40,560 nt of DNA from Planctomycetia bacterium (lineage in GTDB: Bacteria; Planctomycetota; Planctomycetia; Gemmatales; Gemmataceae): assembly GCA_005808665.1 (NCBI GenBank), contig SYLG01000009.1, positions 1 through 40,560 on the forward strand, in the 5' to 3' direction. The notes under the pieces are model-generated. The model did no database searches, was not told the DNA's origin, and worked only from the letters and a program-made list of their open reading frames with translations. Numbering within the stretch: the stretch's first letter is position 1; each line of letters begins with the position of its first letter. Made by a program: the position numbers and the translations under genes. This document shows positions 1,886-29,627 of this stretch, in pieces.

Positions 1886-3238
1886 GATTATGATGCGGTA
1901 GGCAACTGGGACTCGGTAACGACCAACAGCACGACCCAGACCCGGGGAGCGAACAGGCAAAACGAGATCACCAGTGTCAGCGGGGCGACGACTCCGACCT
2001 ATGACAACAATGGCAACCTGACCAAGGATGAGAACGATAACCGGTTTGTGTGGGATGCCTGGAACATGATGGTTCAGGTCAAAAACGCATCGAATGTGGT
2101 CATTGTCACAATGGGTCGCGATGCCCTCCATCGCCATGTGAGCGATACGGAGGGAACTTCCCTGAAGGATCGATTCTTTGGTTTGAAATGGCAGATATTG
2201 GAGGTCAAGGTTGGATCAAACACGGTTTCCCGAAATGTCTGGAGCCAAGCGTATGTGGATGGGATGATTCTGAGAGACCGGGATACGGATAGTAACGGGA
2301 CGATGGATGAGCGGTTATATTCCTTGCAGGATGCCAACTGGAACACGACAGGGTTGGTGAACCCAAGTGGCACCGTGGTGGAGCGGGACACTTACACACC
2401 CTTTGGGGTGGTAACCTTCCGGGATGCTTCCGGGTCGGCATTGTCCGCATCCACCAAGGATTGGGTTTTCCTCCATCAGGGAGGCGAGAAGATCGCGGCC
2501 GGGAATTACGAATTCCGGAATCGGATCTATAGCCCGACATTAGGAAGGTGGTTGTCCAATGATCCATTGGGATTTGATTCTGGAGATCTTGGATGGTACA
2601 GGGGGATCGAAAATAACCCAATAATAATGCTTGACCCGAGCGGGCTTTGGTCATTTGGAGGTGCTTTTGGGGGAATGGTCACTGGAGGGGGGGTGGGTGC
2701 CGGTGTTGGCGCGACTGTAGGTGCTCCGATTTTTGGAATCGGTGCATTGCCTGGTGCGATTGGGGGTGGGATAATTGGCGGCATTGGAGGATTCGTTGCA
2801 GGCGGTGTATTTACCGAACCAGCCTATTCCGCAATAAGTGGGAATCTTGACCTTCAAATTTCCGTGGCGGAAGAGGTAGGCATGGGTATCCTACTTGGGG
2901 CACCTTTTGGTGTTGTTGGAGGTATCTCAGGACCAGCCGGCTTTGCACTAACCAATGGCTCTTTTTGGACATCGAGTTCAGCATATTATTTAGGTCTTTC
3001 GGTGCCAGGGGCGACTATGACCGTATCTCATTGGGGAAAGCCGGGGATCTACCCGGGTTCTTGGGTGATGGTTGGCAAACCCGATTGGTTAAGTTGGATA
3101 CTTGCTGGGGGGTGGGTGGTTGGTCCCTATTCGAGTGGCCTGCCGTATTCAGTTCCTGTCCAAAGTGTGGTACTACCAATTGGTAGCAAGATCCCCTGGT
3201 ACGAATGGACTAAGATTTGGCAAAGAACGATAAAATAA
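1886..3238 (+). pseudogene. RHS core fragment with second tip, 5' end missing
   Basis: RHS sequence begins at 1886 directly after an in-frame stop, with the YD-repeat-like DYDAVGNWDSV, then YDNNGNLTKDENDNRFVWDA. There is no signal sequence, N-terminal domain or convincing start; an ATG at 2048 gives 396 residues. The core continues through WSQAYVDGMILRDRDTDS, DANWNTTG and FRNRIYSPTLGRWLSNDP. After DPSGLWSFGG comes a Gly-rich zipper-like hydrophobic stretch (about 2655-2815), then a tip containing VSHWGKPGIYPGSWVM and GPYSSGLPYSVP. I have the impression that tips with a W-G-x-x-G-x-x-x-G-x-W-V-M motif occur at the ends of RHS proteins in other phyla, but cannot name the family. The fragment may be silent, serving as a tip donor by recombination with an intact RHS gene. 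Confidence 0.75.
2281..2590 (+). repeat. RHS core direct repeat, copy 2
   Basis: This is the partner of the direct repeat at 1-300, in the same orientation. Recombination between the two would delete the first tip, its immunity candidate, element copy A and the 1886 junction, and would join the upstream RHS gene to the second tip. Confidence 0.8.
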
Positions 3239-24408: not shown

Positions 24409-25497
24409 ATGCGCTACTCGAAGGTCTATCTCGAGTCGTTTGGCTACTACTTGCCCCAGCAAGTCGTATCCACCGCAGAGCTTGAGGAACGATTATTGCC
24501 CCTGTACAAGGAACTCCGCATTCCCCCTGGGCAACTTGAGGCGATGACGGGAATTACCGAGAGGCGCTATTGGGAACCCGGCTATTCGGTCACCCAGGGT
24601 GCGTTGGAAGCGGCCAAGAAGGCAATCGCCAAAACCAATGTGAAACCAGAGGACATTGAGGTCGTGATCTATGCGGCCGTCTGTCGTGAAAATTTCGAAC
24701 CCGCCTCGGCGTGCCATGTTGCCGCAGGTCTTGGAGTAAGCCCCAACGCTTCGGTGTTTGACATTTCAAACGCCTGCCTGGGAGTCCTCAATGGCATCAT
24801 CGACATTGCCAATCGTGTCGAATTGGGACAAATCCGGGCGGGGTTGGTGGTTTCTTGCGAAACCTCGCGGGAGATCATTGATACCATGATCCAAAAAATG
24901 ATGACCGAGCGGAACATGGATACTTTCAAGTCATCCCTCGCCACCCTCACCGGAGGGTCAGGTGCGGTTGCCGTGCTGGTTTCCGATGGAAGTTTCAACA
25001 AAGAGTATCGGCGCAAGCTGGTGGGGGGAACGACCCAAGCCGCCCCCCAACATCATGGGCTTTGCAAATGGGGACTTGCTCCTGCCGCTTTTGATTTTGC
25101 CGCCACCGCCCCGGCTATGGCAATGGGTCATATGCTAAACCTTGCAAGGCAAGTCATGTCCACGGATTCTGTAGCGGTCCTCAAACACGGGGTGGACCTT
25201 GGCCTTAGAAACTGGCGCAATTTCCTCCACAAGTTTGGCTGGGCCAGCGACTTGATTGATAAAGTCATTTGCCACCAGGTTGGCACTCCGCATCGTGACA
25301 CGGTTCTCAAAGCCCTTGGAATTGACCGGGCCAAGGATTTTTCCACTTATCACTACCTTGGAAACATTGGCACTGTTTCCCTCCCCTTGACGGCGGCCCT
25401 CGCCGAAGAACGGGGATTCCTGAAGCCCGGTGATCGAGTCGGCTTTCTGGGCATTGGCAGCGGGCTCAATTGTCTAATGCTTGGCATCGACTGGTAA
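24409..25497 (+). CDS. oleA: OleA, acyl-CoA head-to-head condensing thiolase
   Basis: The 362-residue thiolase-fold protein is related to FabH. Active-site residues are C123 (ISNACLGVLNG), H289 (VICHQVG) and N319 (YLGNIGTVS). E97 (NFEPASAC) lies 26 residues before the Cys, as in the catalytic Glu of known OleA, and is not found in ordinary FabH. OleA condenses two fatty acyl-CoA molecules to a 2-alkyl-3-ketoacid. The ATG follows GGGGCGGA. OleB, OleC and OleD follow with little or no space, which makes the OleA assignment much safer than ketoacyl-ACP synthase III from sequence alone. The TTHXG-like and TQAAPQHHGL segment near 208-218 is typical of this branch. Confidence 0.93.
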   Translation: MRYSKVYLESFGYYLPQQVVSTAELEERLLPLYKELRIPPGQLEAMTGITERRYWEPGYSVTQGALEAAKKAIAKTNVKPEDIEVVIYAAVCRENFEPASACHVAAGLGVSPNASVFDISNACLGVLNGIIDIANRVELGQIRAGLVVSCETSREIIDTMIQKMMTERNMDTFKSSLATLTGGSGAVAVLVSDGSFNKEYRRKLVGGTTQAAPQHHGLCKWGLAPAAFDFAATAPAMAMGHMLNLARQVMSTDSVAVLKHGVDLGLRNWRNFLHKFGWASDLIDKVICHQVGTPHRDTVLKALGIDRAKDFSTYHYLGNIGTVSLPLTAALAEERGFLKPGDRVGFLGIGSGLNCLMLGIDW

Positions 25498-25504
25498 CCG
25501 ACCT

Positions 25505-26410
25505 GTGAACGCCGCCGTCCCCCAAGCCCATCCGTTGCTCAAAACAACCCCAAAACATTTCACCCGTCACCAATCCCACATCGCCTGGTATGAAGCGGGG
25601 CAAGGTCACCCCGTCATTTGCCTTCATGGGAATCCCAGTTGGTCCATCCTTTTCAGGCCCCTGTTTACAGGTTTGGGTGATGGCCTTCGGGTGATTTCGA
25701 TGGACCAAATGGGGTGTGGCCAATCAGGGATGCCCAAAGGGAACTATGGTTGGAACCTTGAAAGCCGGATGGCCGATTTTGGGGCATTTGTTGATCATGT
25801 TGCTCCAGAACAAAAAGTCTCCCTTGTGGCCCACGACTGGGGCGGAATGATCGCAACCTCCTGGGCGGTACGGAACCCCCACCGGATCGCCTCGATGGTT
25901 CTGATGAACACCGCTGCATTTCCTCTACCCAATCGAAAAACCCTACCCCGAACCATTGGCTGGTGCCGGGCCCCCCTTATTGGGACCATACTCACCCGGG
26001 GTTTTAATGCCTTTTTGCGGGGTGCCATTCGCTATTGTTCCACCAGGAAACTTTCGCCGATGGTGGCCGCGGCCTACCTTTCCCCCCATGACAGTTGGTC
26101 ACGGCGCCGGTCAATTCAAGCATTTGTCAATGACATCCCGCTGAACAAAAACCATCTGTCCTGGCCAACGATTCTTGAAACCCAAAACCGGCTAGGCCTC
26201 CTCAGGGACAAGCCTGTCCTGTTGCCCTGGGGCCTATTGGATTTTGTCTTCGATGGCGATTACCTTGCCGAGTTTCAAAGGCATCTTCCTCAGGCCAGGG
26301 CTATTTCCTACCCCCATGCCGGGCATTGGCTCCTGGAAGATGAACCAGAAGCAGTCACCTTGGAAATCCGCAAATTCCTCCAGCAAAATGTCCTGGTACC
26401 CGTGCCATGA
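25505..26410 (+). CDS. oleB: OleB, beta-lactone decarboxylase (alpha/beta hydrolase)
   Basis: An alpha/beta hydrolase of the haloalkane-dehalogenase-like group. HGNPSW near residue 42 forms the oxyanion region, the nucleophile is the Asp in VAHDWGG (D111), and the catalytic His lies in HAGHWLLEDEPE near 274. An Asp nucleophile in place of Ser is characteristic of this subgroup. OleB decarboxylates the beta-lactone made by OleC to a cis-olefin and was once annotated as a dehalogenase. No ATG lies near the 5' end: I chose GTG at 25505, 7 bases after oleA; a TTG at 25481 within oleA is also possible. It overlaps oleC by 4 bases (ATGA), indicating coupled translation. Confidence 0.92.
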   Translation: MNAAVPQAHPLLKTTPKHFTRHQSHIAWYEAGQGHPVICLHGNPSWSILFRPLFTGLGDGLRVISMDQMGCGQSGMPKGNYGWNLESRMADFGAFVDHVAPEQKVSLVAHDWGGMIATSWAVRNPHRIASMVLMNTAAFPLPNRKTLPRTIGWCRAPLIGTILTRGFNAFLRGAIRYCSTRKLSPMVAAAYLSPHDSWSRRRSIQAFVNDIPLNKNHLSWPTILETQNRLGLLRDKPVLLPWGLLDFVFDGDYLAEFQRHLPQARAISYPHAGHWLLEDEPEAVTLEIRKFLQQNVLVPVP

Positions 26411-28071
26411 ACCATGCGGGCACCCATGGCAACATCGTTGGTGCCCTGGCCCATCAGGCCCGTACACAGCCCGCTTTTCACGCACTTGTCGAGCCTAAAC
26501 ATCCCGGAGTAAGGCAGGTCGCCCGGTCGGTAACCTTTTCCGAATTAAATGAATTGGCAACCACACTGGCCAAGGGCCTTGCCCATTACGGATTTGCCCC
26601 TGGGGATCGGGTGGCCCTGTTTGTTCCCCCTTCAATAGAATCCTTTGCCCTTATTTTTGGCCTGTTTCGGTTGGGGGTCACCCCGGTTATGATCGACCCA
26701 GGACTTGGCATTCGAAGCATGGGACATTGCCTGGAACAAGCCAGGCCATCCGGGTTCATCGGCATCACCAAAGCCCAGGTGGCCAGACTCCTGTTTGGAT
26801 GGGGTAAATCCACCATTGTCCGGTCCATACAAGTGGGCCCTGCCCTGCCCGGAGCGGGGGTAGAATACAAATCGGTTTTTCGTGCCGGCACAACGCAACG
26901 ATTAACCGACCTTCCCCGGTTGGACTATGCCGGGGCTTCCTCCCCGCCTGCGGCAATCCTTTTCACATCGGGCTCCACCGGCCCGGCCAAAGGTGTCGTT
27001 TATACCCACAGCCACTTTTATTCTCAGCTTCGGCTCCTTGGGGAACATTTCGGCATGGGGCCGGGCGATATTGATATCCCAACTTTCCCCCTTTTTGGGT
27101 TGTTTGGCCCGGCACTGGGTATGCAGGAAGTCATTCCGGTGATGGATTTCACAAGGCCCGCCAAGGTGAATCCTGCCATGCTTGCCCAACTGGTCAAGTG
27201 CTACCAGGCGACCAGCCTTTTCGGATCGCCCGCACTCCTTCGCCGACTTTGTGACTATGCGGTACCAAGGGGTATTCGGCTCGATAGCATCAAGCGGATC
27301 GTCTCGGCGGGAGCCCCCGTACCAAGTGATGTTGTCGCAAAGACCAGGTCCCTTCTATCCCCCCATGCCGATGTTCACACACCTTATGGTGCGACCGAGG
27401 CGTTGCCCGTTGCCTCGATTTCCGGCCACGAAATCCTTGGCGATACCTCGGAGGAGACAAGGCGGGGAAGTGGCGTATGTGTTGGACGGGCAATACAAGG
27501 CATTGAGGTGCGGATAATACGGATCTCTGATAACACAATGCCCCAATTTCGCCAGATCGACCTGGCAAAAGTGGGTGAGGTAGGTGAAATCGCCGTATCT
27601 GGCCCAGTAGTCACCACGGAATATTTCCAACGGCCTGACCTCACTGCCCTGCACAAGACCATTGGGCCGGATGGCACCCTGTTCCATCGCATGGGCGACC
27701 TTGGCCATTTGGACGAAGCAGGCCGTTTGTGGATGTGCGGACGAAAATCCCAGCGGGTCCAAACCAAGAACGGAACGCTATTTACCGAAGCTATTGAGGG
27801 AATTTTTACCGGGATGAAAGGCGTAAGGCGCACGGCTTTGGTTGGAGTGGGACCGGAGGGCTCTAAATGCCCGGTGTTGTGGGTTGAACCTGACGGATCC
27901 ATTGCCTGGAAAGTGCTTTTACCACTCCTTCGCCAACGGGCCGAAGGTCACCCTCAGGCGGCAAACATTGCCACATTTTTTTGTGAGGGTGCCTTTCCGG
28001 TCGATATTCGCCATAATTCCAAGATCAAGAGGGAATTATTAGCGGCCAAGGCGGCAAGGTTGTTTCCATGA
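26407..28071 (+). CDS. oleC: OleC, beta-lactone synthetase (AMP-dependent synthetase fold)
   Basis: The 554-residue adenylate-forming enzyme has the P-loop FTSGSTGPAKGVVYTH near residues 184-200, the TPYGATEALPV motif near 322, and RMGDLGHLDEAGRLWMCGRKSQRV (the G-D-x-G and hinge region, near 420-445). The C-terminal Lys lies in NSKIKREL. OleC converts the 2-alkyl-3-hydroxy acid to a beta-lactone using ATP, and does not make an acyl-CoA. Its position between oleB and oleD, with ATGA overlaps on both sides, supports this. OleB and OleC are separate proteins here and not fused as in some actinobacteria. Confidence 0.93.
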   Translation: MNHAGTHGNIVGALAHQARTQPAFHALVEPKHPGVRQVARSVTFSELNELATTLAKGLAHYGFAPGDRVALFVPPSIESFALIFGLFRLGVTPVMIDPGLGIRSMGHCLEQARPSGFIGITKAQVARLLFGWGKSTIVRSIQVGPALPGAGVEYKSVFRAGTTQRLTDLPRLDYAGASSPPAAILFTSGSTGPAKGVVYTHSHFYSQLRLLGEHFGMGPGDIDIPTFPLFGLFGPALGMQEVIPVMDFTRPAKVNPAMLAQLVKCYQATSLFGSPALLRRLCDYAVPRGIRLDSIKRIVSAGAPVPSDVVAKTRSLLSPHADVHTPYGATEALPVASISGHEILGDTSEETRRGSGVCVGRAIQGIEVRIIRISDNTMPQFRQIDLAKVGEVGEIAVSGPVVTTEYFQRPDLTALHKTIGPDGTLFHRMGDLGHLDEAGRLWMCGRKSQRVQTKNGTLFTEAIEGIFTGMKGVRRTALVGVGPEGSKCPVLWVEPDGSIAWKVLLPLLRQRAEGHPQAANIATFFCEGAFPVDIRHNSKIKRELLAAKAARLFP

Positions 28072-29099
28072 GGGTATTGGTCACGGGGGGCAATGGTTTT
28101 TTGGGGCGAGCCATTCTGAGGCGCCTCGTAAAACAGGGACATATTGTCACCAGTTTATCGCGTCATACCCATCCGGAACTTTTGGCCCTTGGAGTTCATC
28201 AAATCCAGGGGTCGGTTACCGATCCAGCAGTGGTGGAAAGGGCCATCCAGGACCAAAATGCGGTAATTCATACGGCGGCAAAAACCGGGGTATGGGGGCC
28301 TGGGGACGAATATGAACAAACCAATGTCCATGGAACCCGAATCCTGCTTGCCGCCTCCAAAAGATTCAATGTCGAACGCTTCATTTATACCAGTTCTCCC
28401 AGCGTGATTTTTGATGGCCATCACGCCCCCAACCTCAGCGAGGAACAGGCATCGTATCCAAAGACCTATCTAACCCATTACAGCCGAACAAAGGCTATGG
28501 CAGAGAAGGAGGTGCTTTTGGCCAATGGCTCCGGGATTTGGACCATTGCCCTTAGGCCGCACCTGATTTGGGGGCCTGGAGACCCCCATTTGCTTCCAAG
28601 GCTTTGGGGGAGAGCCCTCGGAGGATCCCTTCGTCTCATTGGGCCTGGAACCAACCTTATCGACACGACCCATGTGGAGAATGCCGCCTTGGCTCACATT
28701 TTGGCCTTGGAAAACCTTGGCCCCAATGCAGCTTGTAAGGGTAAAGCTTATTTTGTCTCCAACGGTGAGCCACTCCCCATCAAAGATCTTTTTCGCCTGT
28801 TTCTTGAGGCGGCGGGAATCAACCAAGCCATTCCGTCAGTTTCCCGAACTTTTGCCAGGTGGGCGGCCTTTTTCGGGGAGGGGTGGGCGAACCTGACCAA
28901 CCAACTATCCGAACCTCTCCTTACCCGGTTTGTCGTCGACCAGCTTGCTTCAGAGCATTGGTTTTGTCTGGATGCCATCCGCCGGGATTTGGGTTATCAT
29001 CCCGAGGTTGATATTGCCTTGGGACTTTTAGGATTAGCCAAACATTTGCAATCGGTGAAGGAACCCGGTGCCACCTGTACCCTTTCGATTGGTTCCTAA
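28068..29099 (+). CDS. oleD: OleD, NAD(P)H-dependent 2-alkyl-3-ketoalkanoic acid reductase
   Basis: The 343-residue short-chain reductase of the 3-beta-HSD/extended SDR type has the nucleotide-binding loop TGGNGFLGR at residues 6-14 and the catalytic pair Y138/K142 (YSRTK), with Ser residues before it in YTSSPSV. RPHLIWGPGDPH follows, as in other OleD and sterol-dehydrogenase-like proteins. OleD reduces the OleA product to the 2-alkyl-3-hydroxy acid. The ATG overlaps the oleC stop by 4 bases. It is the last gene of the operon; no clear terminator was seen in the 84 bases before the next gene, which might therefore be cotranscribed. Confidence 0.93.
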   Translation: MRVLVTGGNGFLGRAILRRLVKQGHIVTSLSRHTHPELLALGVHQIQGSVTDPAVVERAIQDQNAVIHTAAKTGVWGPGDEYEQTNVHGTRILLAASKRFNVERFIYTSSPSVIFDGHHAPNLSEEQASYPKTYLTHYSRTKAMAEKEVLLANGSGIWTIALRPHLIWGPGDPHLLPRLWGRALGGSLRLIGPGTNLIDTTHVENAALAHILALENLGPNAACKGKAYFVSNGEPLPIKDLFRLFLEAAGINQAIPSVSRTFARWAAFFGEGWANLTNQLSEPLLTRFVVDQLASEHWFCLDAIRRDLGYHPEVDIALGLLGLAKHLQSVKEPGATCTLSIGS

Positions 29100-29183: not shown

Positions 29184-29627
29184 ATGAGCTTCAAGATGCA
29201 ACGGGTCCATGTCTACCACAAAGAAGTTGAGGACAAACCGGGCGGTGTTGGGGGCCTGTTAAAAGTTCTGGCCGGGGCAGGTACCCATCTGGAATATGTC
29301 TATAGCCAACGATCCGCCACCAAACAGGGGATGGGCGACCTTTATGTTGCCCCGCTTCGTAATGCGGCCGAAATCAAGGTGGCCAAAGAATCCGGTATGC
29401 GCGAAGTGACTGAACCCACGGTCATGCGGCTTGAGGGGGATGACAAGGCGGGCTTGAGCGGAAAACTGATCCAGGGTTGGGAGATGGCAGGGATTAACCT
29501 GCATGGTTTGGTATTGTCGGTGCTAAGCGGCCGGTTTGTAGGTTATGTAACCTTCGACAGCCCGGAGGATGGAAACCGGGCGGCCATCATTCTTGCCGAA
29601 CTGGGCACATCTGCGGTTCATGCCTAA
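29184..29627 (+). CDS. ACT-domain protein (two ACT-like repeats)
   Basis: The 147-residue product has an N-terminal ACT pattern: VEDKPGGVGGLLKVLAGAGTHLEYVYS is seen around residues 15-41, where DKPG-x-(V/L)-x-x-L is the ligand-loop motif. A second half (GDDKAGLSGKLIQGWEMAGINLHG, around 85-108) repeats the strand-helix-strand pattern. No catalytic domain is present. Stand-alone ACT pairs usually sense amino acids or act as regulatory subunits; the ligand here is unknown. The ATG follows GGAG at 8 bases. It lies 84 bases after oleD, but shared transcription is not certain. Confidence 0.8.
   Translation: MSFKMQRVHVYHKEVEDKPGGVGGLLKVLAGAGTHLEYVYSQRSATKQGMGDLYVAPLRNAAEIKVAKESGMREVTEPTVMRLEGDDKAGLSGKLIQGWEMAGINLHGLVLSVLSGRFVGYVTFDSPEDGNRAAIILAELGTSAVHA

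Follow-up and report, generated by a model that had tools for sequence, protein, structure and literature searches.

The stretch of DNA analysed here (the window) comprises 40,560 nucleotides of contig SYLG01000009.1 (assembly GCA_005808665.1) from a Planctomycetia bacterium of the family Gemmataceae, and carries at positions 24409-29099 four open reading frames (ORFs) lying on the same strand (+) in the order oleA-oleB-oleC-oleD. Judging from sequence comparisons, these genes probably encode a functional OleABCD pathway whose acyl chains would come from a polyunsaturated fatty acid (PUFA) synthase encoded on another contig (C145) of the same genome, and whose product would be a polyunsaturated hydrocarbon similar to hentriacontanonaene (C31:9). 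The OleABCD activity, the acyl source, the chain length and the double-bond count are all what we infer in this way. A complete oleABCD operon had been claimed at this place in an original prediction made from the same DNA, and it was borne out by the ORFs, the catalytic residues, the OleA fold and the genome context; the ATGA overlaps described at oleB/oleC and oleC/oleD are both present in the sequence. The system had also been considered as described and its product as not evident. The system is indeed known, but the product can be sharpened, since the presence of pfaD, pfaA and pfaBC in the genome points to a polyunsaturated olefin.

Identity of the four Ole proteins

The oleA gene (24409..25497, + strand) encodes a head-to-head (non-decarboxylative Claisen) condensing enzyme of 362 residues, matched by profile NF006720 at 476 bits over a cut-off of 285. 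The OleA pattern EPxx[AS]x(14,18)DxxNACL published in PMC7158056 is found by eye at residues 97-124 as EPASA, 16 residues and DISNACL. The catalytic set E97, C123, H289 and N319, the first two of which had already been pointed out, is complete and invariant in all 40 OleA rows aligned, the window's included. The predicted structure, built with 50 sequences, has a predicted local distance difference test score (pLDDT) of 91.7. In the fold search, which covered OleA, the top 18 PDB rows were OleA-type with Z scores of 42.8-47.7 (17 of Xanthomonas campestris and 3fk5 of X. oryzae, an entry titled FabH), the next row being PqsD at 38.8. On Xanthomonas OleA 3row, 336 residues of the model were aligned at 1.6 angstrom with a Z score of 47.6, and the fold alignment (model 1-362 on 21-358) placed the catalytic four on E117, C143, H285 and N315 in crystal numbering.

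Compared to Xanthomonas OleA, the window's protein has an extra loop of about 24 residues at about 223-249 (25075..25155, + strand), located by a break in the phmmer alignment, in which the query passes from 223 to 250 and the Xanthomonas chain from 229 to 232. Model confidence is low in this loop (block pLDDT 60-72), and its length, compared qualitatively, varies, being long in many Gemmataceae and some Gammaproteobacteria and short in the countable Geobacter rows. Giant open frames of about 1780-1814 codons with FabH/OleA-like domains were also seen in three relatives (G013, G029 and G005).

The oleB gene (25481..26410, + strand; 309 residues from TTG) encodes an alpha/beta hydrolase (Abhydrolase_1) of the haloalkane-dehalogenase type, by homology a beta-lactone decarboxylase. 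Its start is uncertain, either TTG 25481, which gives a 17-base overlap with oleA, or GTG 25505. The best NCBIfam model was haloalkane dehalogenase at 140.5 bits, under its cut-off of 241. The Asp nucleophile claimed earlier corresponds to Asp119, kept in 29 of 29 rows together with His282, Asp254, Asn51 and Trp120, a five-residue set which we take to be the class III dehalogenase signature. A link of OleB to class III dehalogenases is stated in the title of a reference in PMC7064751.

The next gene, oleC (26407..28071, + strand), encodes an adenylate-forming beta-lactone synthetase of 554 residues, matched by NF006754 at 607 bits over a cut-off of 478; the next best models, both of olefin beta-lactone synthetase, gave 550 and 482 bits versus cut-offs of 900 and 850. 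At 30 of 36 positions of its adenylation motifs the residue is kept in 22-25 of 25 rows. The product of oleD (28068..29099, + strand; 343 residues) is an NAD(P)H-dependent 2-alkyl-3-oxoalkanoate reductase of the extended short-chain dehydrogenase/reductase type, for which NF042422 (359 bits) and NF042423 (319 bits) were the best models by far, below their cut-offs of 580. The YxxxK motif announced for OleD is Y138-x3-K142, and both Tyr138 and Lys142 are kept in 21 of 21 rows. The equivalog cut-offs for OleC and OleD, which belong to Xanthomonas and Shewanella models, are taken to mark clades near the named organisms rather than limits of the pathway.

Relatives were sampled as 59 genomes, namely the window's own (4.48 Mb in 186 contigs, the window being contig C41) and 58 others. 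OleA-grade matches (E 1.7e-66 or better) were found in 40 of them, the remaining 19 having FabH-grade matches only (best 9.5e-14). All four Ole proteins were matched in 34 of these 40 genomes, dispersed genes included, with limits of 1e-60 for OleC and 1e-40 for OleB and OleD. Since this recurrence comes with profile scores of the window's Ole proteins far above background, the operon is not a chance arrangement. Matches to promoter or terminator consensus sequences in the window were no more numerous than in shuffled sequence. Between the window and its congeners (loci L044 and L045), identity is 93% for OleA and 69-74% for OleB, OleC and OleD in G001, and 96% and 79-86% respectively in G002; OleA is thus far more conserved than its partner proteins in both congeners.

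PUFA synthase genes in the same genome

A search for PUFA genes in the genome, suggested along with the original prediction, was positive: a PUFA-synthase-like cluster of pfaD, pfaA and a fused pfaBC lies at C145:1469-16251, on a contig other than the window's. The PfaD family has one match in this genome (C145:1640-2953), in a pfaD gene of 541 residues that scores 634 bits over 449. PfaA (2243 residues, 1116 bits over 1010) contains ketosynthase and acyltransferase stretches, two acyl carrier protein (ACP) motifs, and ketoreductase and dehydratase stretches, and the PfaBC-like fusion (2156 residues) has two ketosynthase and two FabA-like stretches. Type I pfa clusters, among whose listed members are Gemmata obscuriglobus and several Geobacter, carry a fused pfaBC, a feature they share with Types C, H and L (PMC3098273). 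The cluster on C145 may be of Type I, the fusion alone fitting Types C, H and L too.

Behind pfaBC, C145 carries a methyltransferase-like, an unknown and an old yellow enzyme-like gene, which were considered as parts of an olefin cluster and rejected: a search of other loci gave a single match, in L149, to a relative of the unknown gene. An open frame at the left end of C145 (L042:2-457) resembles, by eye, the last part of an intein or HINT-type domain.

Association of oleA with pfa genes in other genomes

With an OleA alignment of 12 sequences, a scan gave at least 576 matches, of which the best 80 loci of named genomes were kept as the nearest OleAs. In 68 of these 80, the FabA portion of pfaBC is matched within 2 kb upstream of oleA on the same strand, at a median distance of 28 bp and at most 1560. 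Of the other 12 loci, seven offer less than 3 kb upstream, and in the remaining five the upstream sequence is longer but has no pfaBC; the genomes of 11 of these 12 have a PfaD match, over cut-off in 9. The titles of the 80 records include Geobacteraceae, other Desulfuromonadales, Gammaproteobacteria, Acidobacteria, Elusimicrobia and others, although such bin titles can be wrong, as for L083, titled Kuenenia, whose OleA is near-identical to those of G020 and L086.

A quick tree of 115 rows was built, from which seven of the 80 loci were dropped as having the same OleA as a genome of the relatives set (they were kept in the counts). The window's OleA and 104 others form a clade of 105 rows with a Shimodaira-Hasegawa-like approximate likelihood ratio test (SH-aLRT) support of 100, and the OleAs of families f4, f5 and f6, Xanthomonas OleA and the genome's own FabH fall outside it. 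The tree has long branches, flagged by the program, among them G051, Xanthomonas and FabH, and it lacks Shewanella OleA. By this tree and by the 68 of 80 loci, the window's OleA falls in a clade found beside PUFA synthases. The six OleA-bearing genomes of f4 and f6 are all without a PfaD match.

Among the 59 genomes, PfaD was matched in 35, over cut-off in 31. Both OleA and PfaD were found in 32 genomes, OleA alone in 8, PfaD alone in 3 and neither in 16 (Fisher p 6.5e-6, shared ancestry being ignored); within the window's own family (f1), the corresponding counts are 25, 2, 2 and 8 (p 4.6e-5, likewise ignoring shared ancestry). In 16 of the 32 genomes with both, pfaD and oleA lie on one contig and one strand within 18 kb. 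They are far apart on one contig in G046 and on different contigs in the other 15, one of which (G018) still has the end of pfaBC adjoining oleA.

As a separate observation, oleA is found without oleB, oleC and oleD within the 8.3-8.5 kb taken around it at seven loci of families f4-f6 (L070-L072, L074, L077, L078 and L080); relatives of OleB, OleC and OleD occur elsewhere in those seven genomes, which thus have dispersed ole pathways.

Separation of the two clusters in the genome of the window

In the window, none of the ORFs listed in the 24.4 kb that precede oleA looked pfa-like. Since ole and pfa are not linked in this genome, their coupling, if it exists, would have to take place in trans. 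In congener G001, other genes fill 1.9 kb upstream of oleA. In G029, oleA, pfaD and pfaBC are on three contigs, and the 5 kb listed upstream of oleA hold, by eye, chaperone and regulator genes. As the oleA genes of G001 and G029 are also preceded by other genes, the standalone state of ole seems common to the window's sub-lineage, with differing upstream neighbours.

In G020, which has an intact pfa-ole cluster, oleD is followed by clpB and a trypsin-PDZ gene, as in the window, and upstream of pfaD there are relatives of the MoxR, cytochrome peroxidase and DUF58 genes that the window carries further downstream (all gene names given by eye). This order suggests that G020 and the window have one chromosomal neighbourhood in common and that the cluster which moved would be pfa rather than ole, a reading drawn from one lineage, that of G020 (locus L085) and the close L083 and L086. 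Of 127 loci, 5 were seen to contain clpB, many of the loci being too short to show it.

Proposed pathway and alternative explanations

In the pathway proposed, OleA would condense two activated acyl chains head to head into a beta-keto acid, which OleD would reduce; OleC would then close the beta-lactone with ATP, and OleB would split off CO2 to give a long-chain olefin whose double bond is internal. These steps follow characterised homologues (PMC7158056, PMC6463001). The acyl chains would most likely be supplied by the PUFA-synthase-like cluster on C145, probably off its ACP domains. The most plausible product would be a polyunsaturated C31-like olefin, because Shewanella and Geobacter bemidjiensis make 31:9 and Geobacter-type OleAs share the clade of the window's protein.

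Several points weigh against this proposal. On the side of the enzymes, OleC and OleD remain under the narrow equivalog cut-offs, OleB is without a specific model, and PfaBC has a weak PfaB match (43.6 bits versus a cut-off of 144). On the side of gene context, ole and pfa are unlinked in the window's own genome, in which PfaD and the pfaBC C-terminus match C145 only, and this C-terminus was not found in G001 (which has PfaD), nor in G002 or G013, these being incomplete, fragmented genomes. The adjacency of pfaBC and oleA was counted among the nearest OleAs only, the best 80 of at least 576 matches. Eight OleA-bearing genomes have no PfaD match, six of other families and two of the window's own. 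Outside this family the association is not significant (7, 6, 1 and 8 genomes, in the order used above; p 0.07), and shared ancestry is ignored in all of these 2x2 tests. Family f5 (two genomes) has PfaD together with an OleA of the outside type, an exception to a simple rule. In addition, PfaD is not specific alone, having been matched in 3 of 14 control genomes, once over cut-off, and in 4 of the 35 genomes with PfaD all matches are below the cut-off, to fragments or a split gene.

Some of these points would also be expected from an ordinary olefin pathway, in which OleA uses saturated, branched or mono-unsaturated type II chains, as in Xanthomonas or Micrococcus, the PUFA synthase having another role. 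The unlinked clusters of the window's genome, the other genes in the 1.9 kb upstream of oleA in G001, the three contigs of G029 and the eight genomes with OleA and no PfaD match all speak for it. However, in six of these eight genomes OleA falls outside the clade of the window, and the other two, G002 and G036, are incomplete genomes (79% and 83% complete). Furthermore, pfaBC adjoins oleA in most of the 80 best-matching named loci, and PfaD occurs without OleA in just 3 of 35 genomes, which makes an ordinary acyl source unlikely.

Because PfaD is so seldom without OleA in the genomes sampled, and because the pfa-ole operon is standard among the nearest OleA genes, it can tentatively be proposed that the PUFA synthase of Gemmataceae and related planctomycetes might be a dedicated olefin-precursor machine instead of supplying PUFA to membranes. 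The operon would then have been split in the window's sub-lineage and OleA would find the carrier domains in trans, perhaps helped by its variable loop; this broader scenario is rather less probable than not.

An operon ending at a beta-lactone natural product (oleACD type) instead of an olefin would agree with the scores of OleC and OleD under olefin-specific cut-offs. Beta-lactone clusters are nevertheless described as being without oleB (PMC7064751), and the presence in this operon of oleB, with its Asp, His, second Asp, Asn and Trp kept in every row, renders such an end product very improbable. Finally, that OleA is an ordinary FabH beside unrelated lipid enzymes has a negligible probability and was ruled out by profile scores and a separate FabH, for despite the shared fold superfamily, in which PqsD and FabH structures come after OleA in the fold list, the fabH profile gave 97.5 bits with a cut-off of 292, a genuine FabH is encoded elsewhere in the genome (C145:26572-27594, 344 bits over the same cut-off), Glu97 is invariant and the top 18 fold rows are OleA-type, including the one titled FabH; the reassignment that would have undone the original prediction thus fails.

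Relation to known systems

The window's system has the same four enzymes as OleABCD of Xanthomonas campestris, with the same OleA fold (Z 47.7, 33% identity) and catalytic residues, but its OleA carries the extra loop and belongs to another clade, the one found beside PUFA synthases. It also resembles the pfa-like/ole clusters (Type I) of Geobacter/Desulfuromonadales and Gemmata, the window's OleA being 56-60% identical to the Geobacteraceae and Desulfuromonadales rows and its genome having the fused pfaBC and PUFA-synthase-like genes; in contrast, pfaBC lies directly upstream of oleA in most of the nearest named loci and on a different contig in the window's genome. As in Shewanella, OleA and a PUFA synthase occur in one genome, whereas the hentriacontanonaene product has been shown in Shewanella and the window's system is known from its genes.

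In Shewanella, OleA draws its chains, argued to be acyl-ACP, from the Pfa synthase, with 31:9 as product and a polyunsaturated long-chain ketone also reported; the ole genes can be clustered with pfa or located elsewhere (PMC6463001). Geobacter bemidjiensis also makes 31:9, and Type I pfa, that of Gemmata included, was proposed in 2011 as a source of olefin precursors, a location of ole directly next to pfa being common and not obligatory (PMC3098273). In Gemmataceae, oleC has been recorded in metagenome-assembled genomes (PMC10176705). Sukovich et al. 2010 described olefin production with species of four Gram-negative phyla including Planctomycetes (per PMC7158056). As Planctomycetes were among the phyla used, that study may already include the measurement of an olefin from a planctomycete. 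It reportedly included a marine planctomycete with a 31:9-type product. Beyond the mention of that study, no measured planctomycete olefin is described in the available portions of the literature searched, most subscription papers being outside its coverage.

The system itself is known, ole genes in Planctomycetes being on record, and what is added is a sharper product prediction, made specific by the genome context, and a clear genomic coupling, to which the window is an exception in arrangement. A proposal made in 2011 with one Gemmata is thereby extended to coupling in most of the 80 nearest named OleA loci, from several phyla, and genomes with separated clusters offer natural tests of OleA working with its synthase in trans.

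Neighbouring genes

A gene encoding 147 residues (29184-29627) directly after oleD, with no Pfam or NCBIfam match, was not counted as part of the system; it has a relative of 91% identity over 121 residues in congener G002, where it also adjoins oleD. At the left contig end, two ORFs with an RHS repeat-associated core domain (62-979 and 2048-3238) are possibly the C-terminal ends of RHS-type proteins, and the guanine-cytosine content across positions 1-2000 is 0.39.

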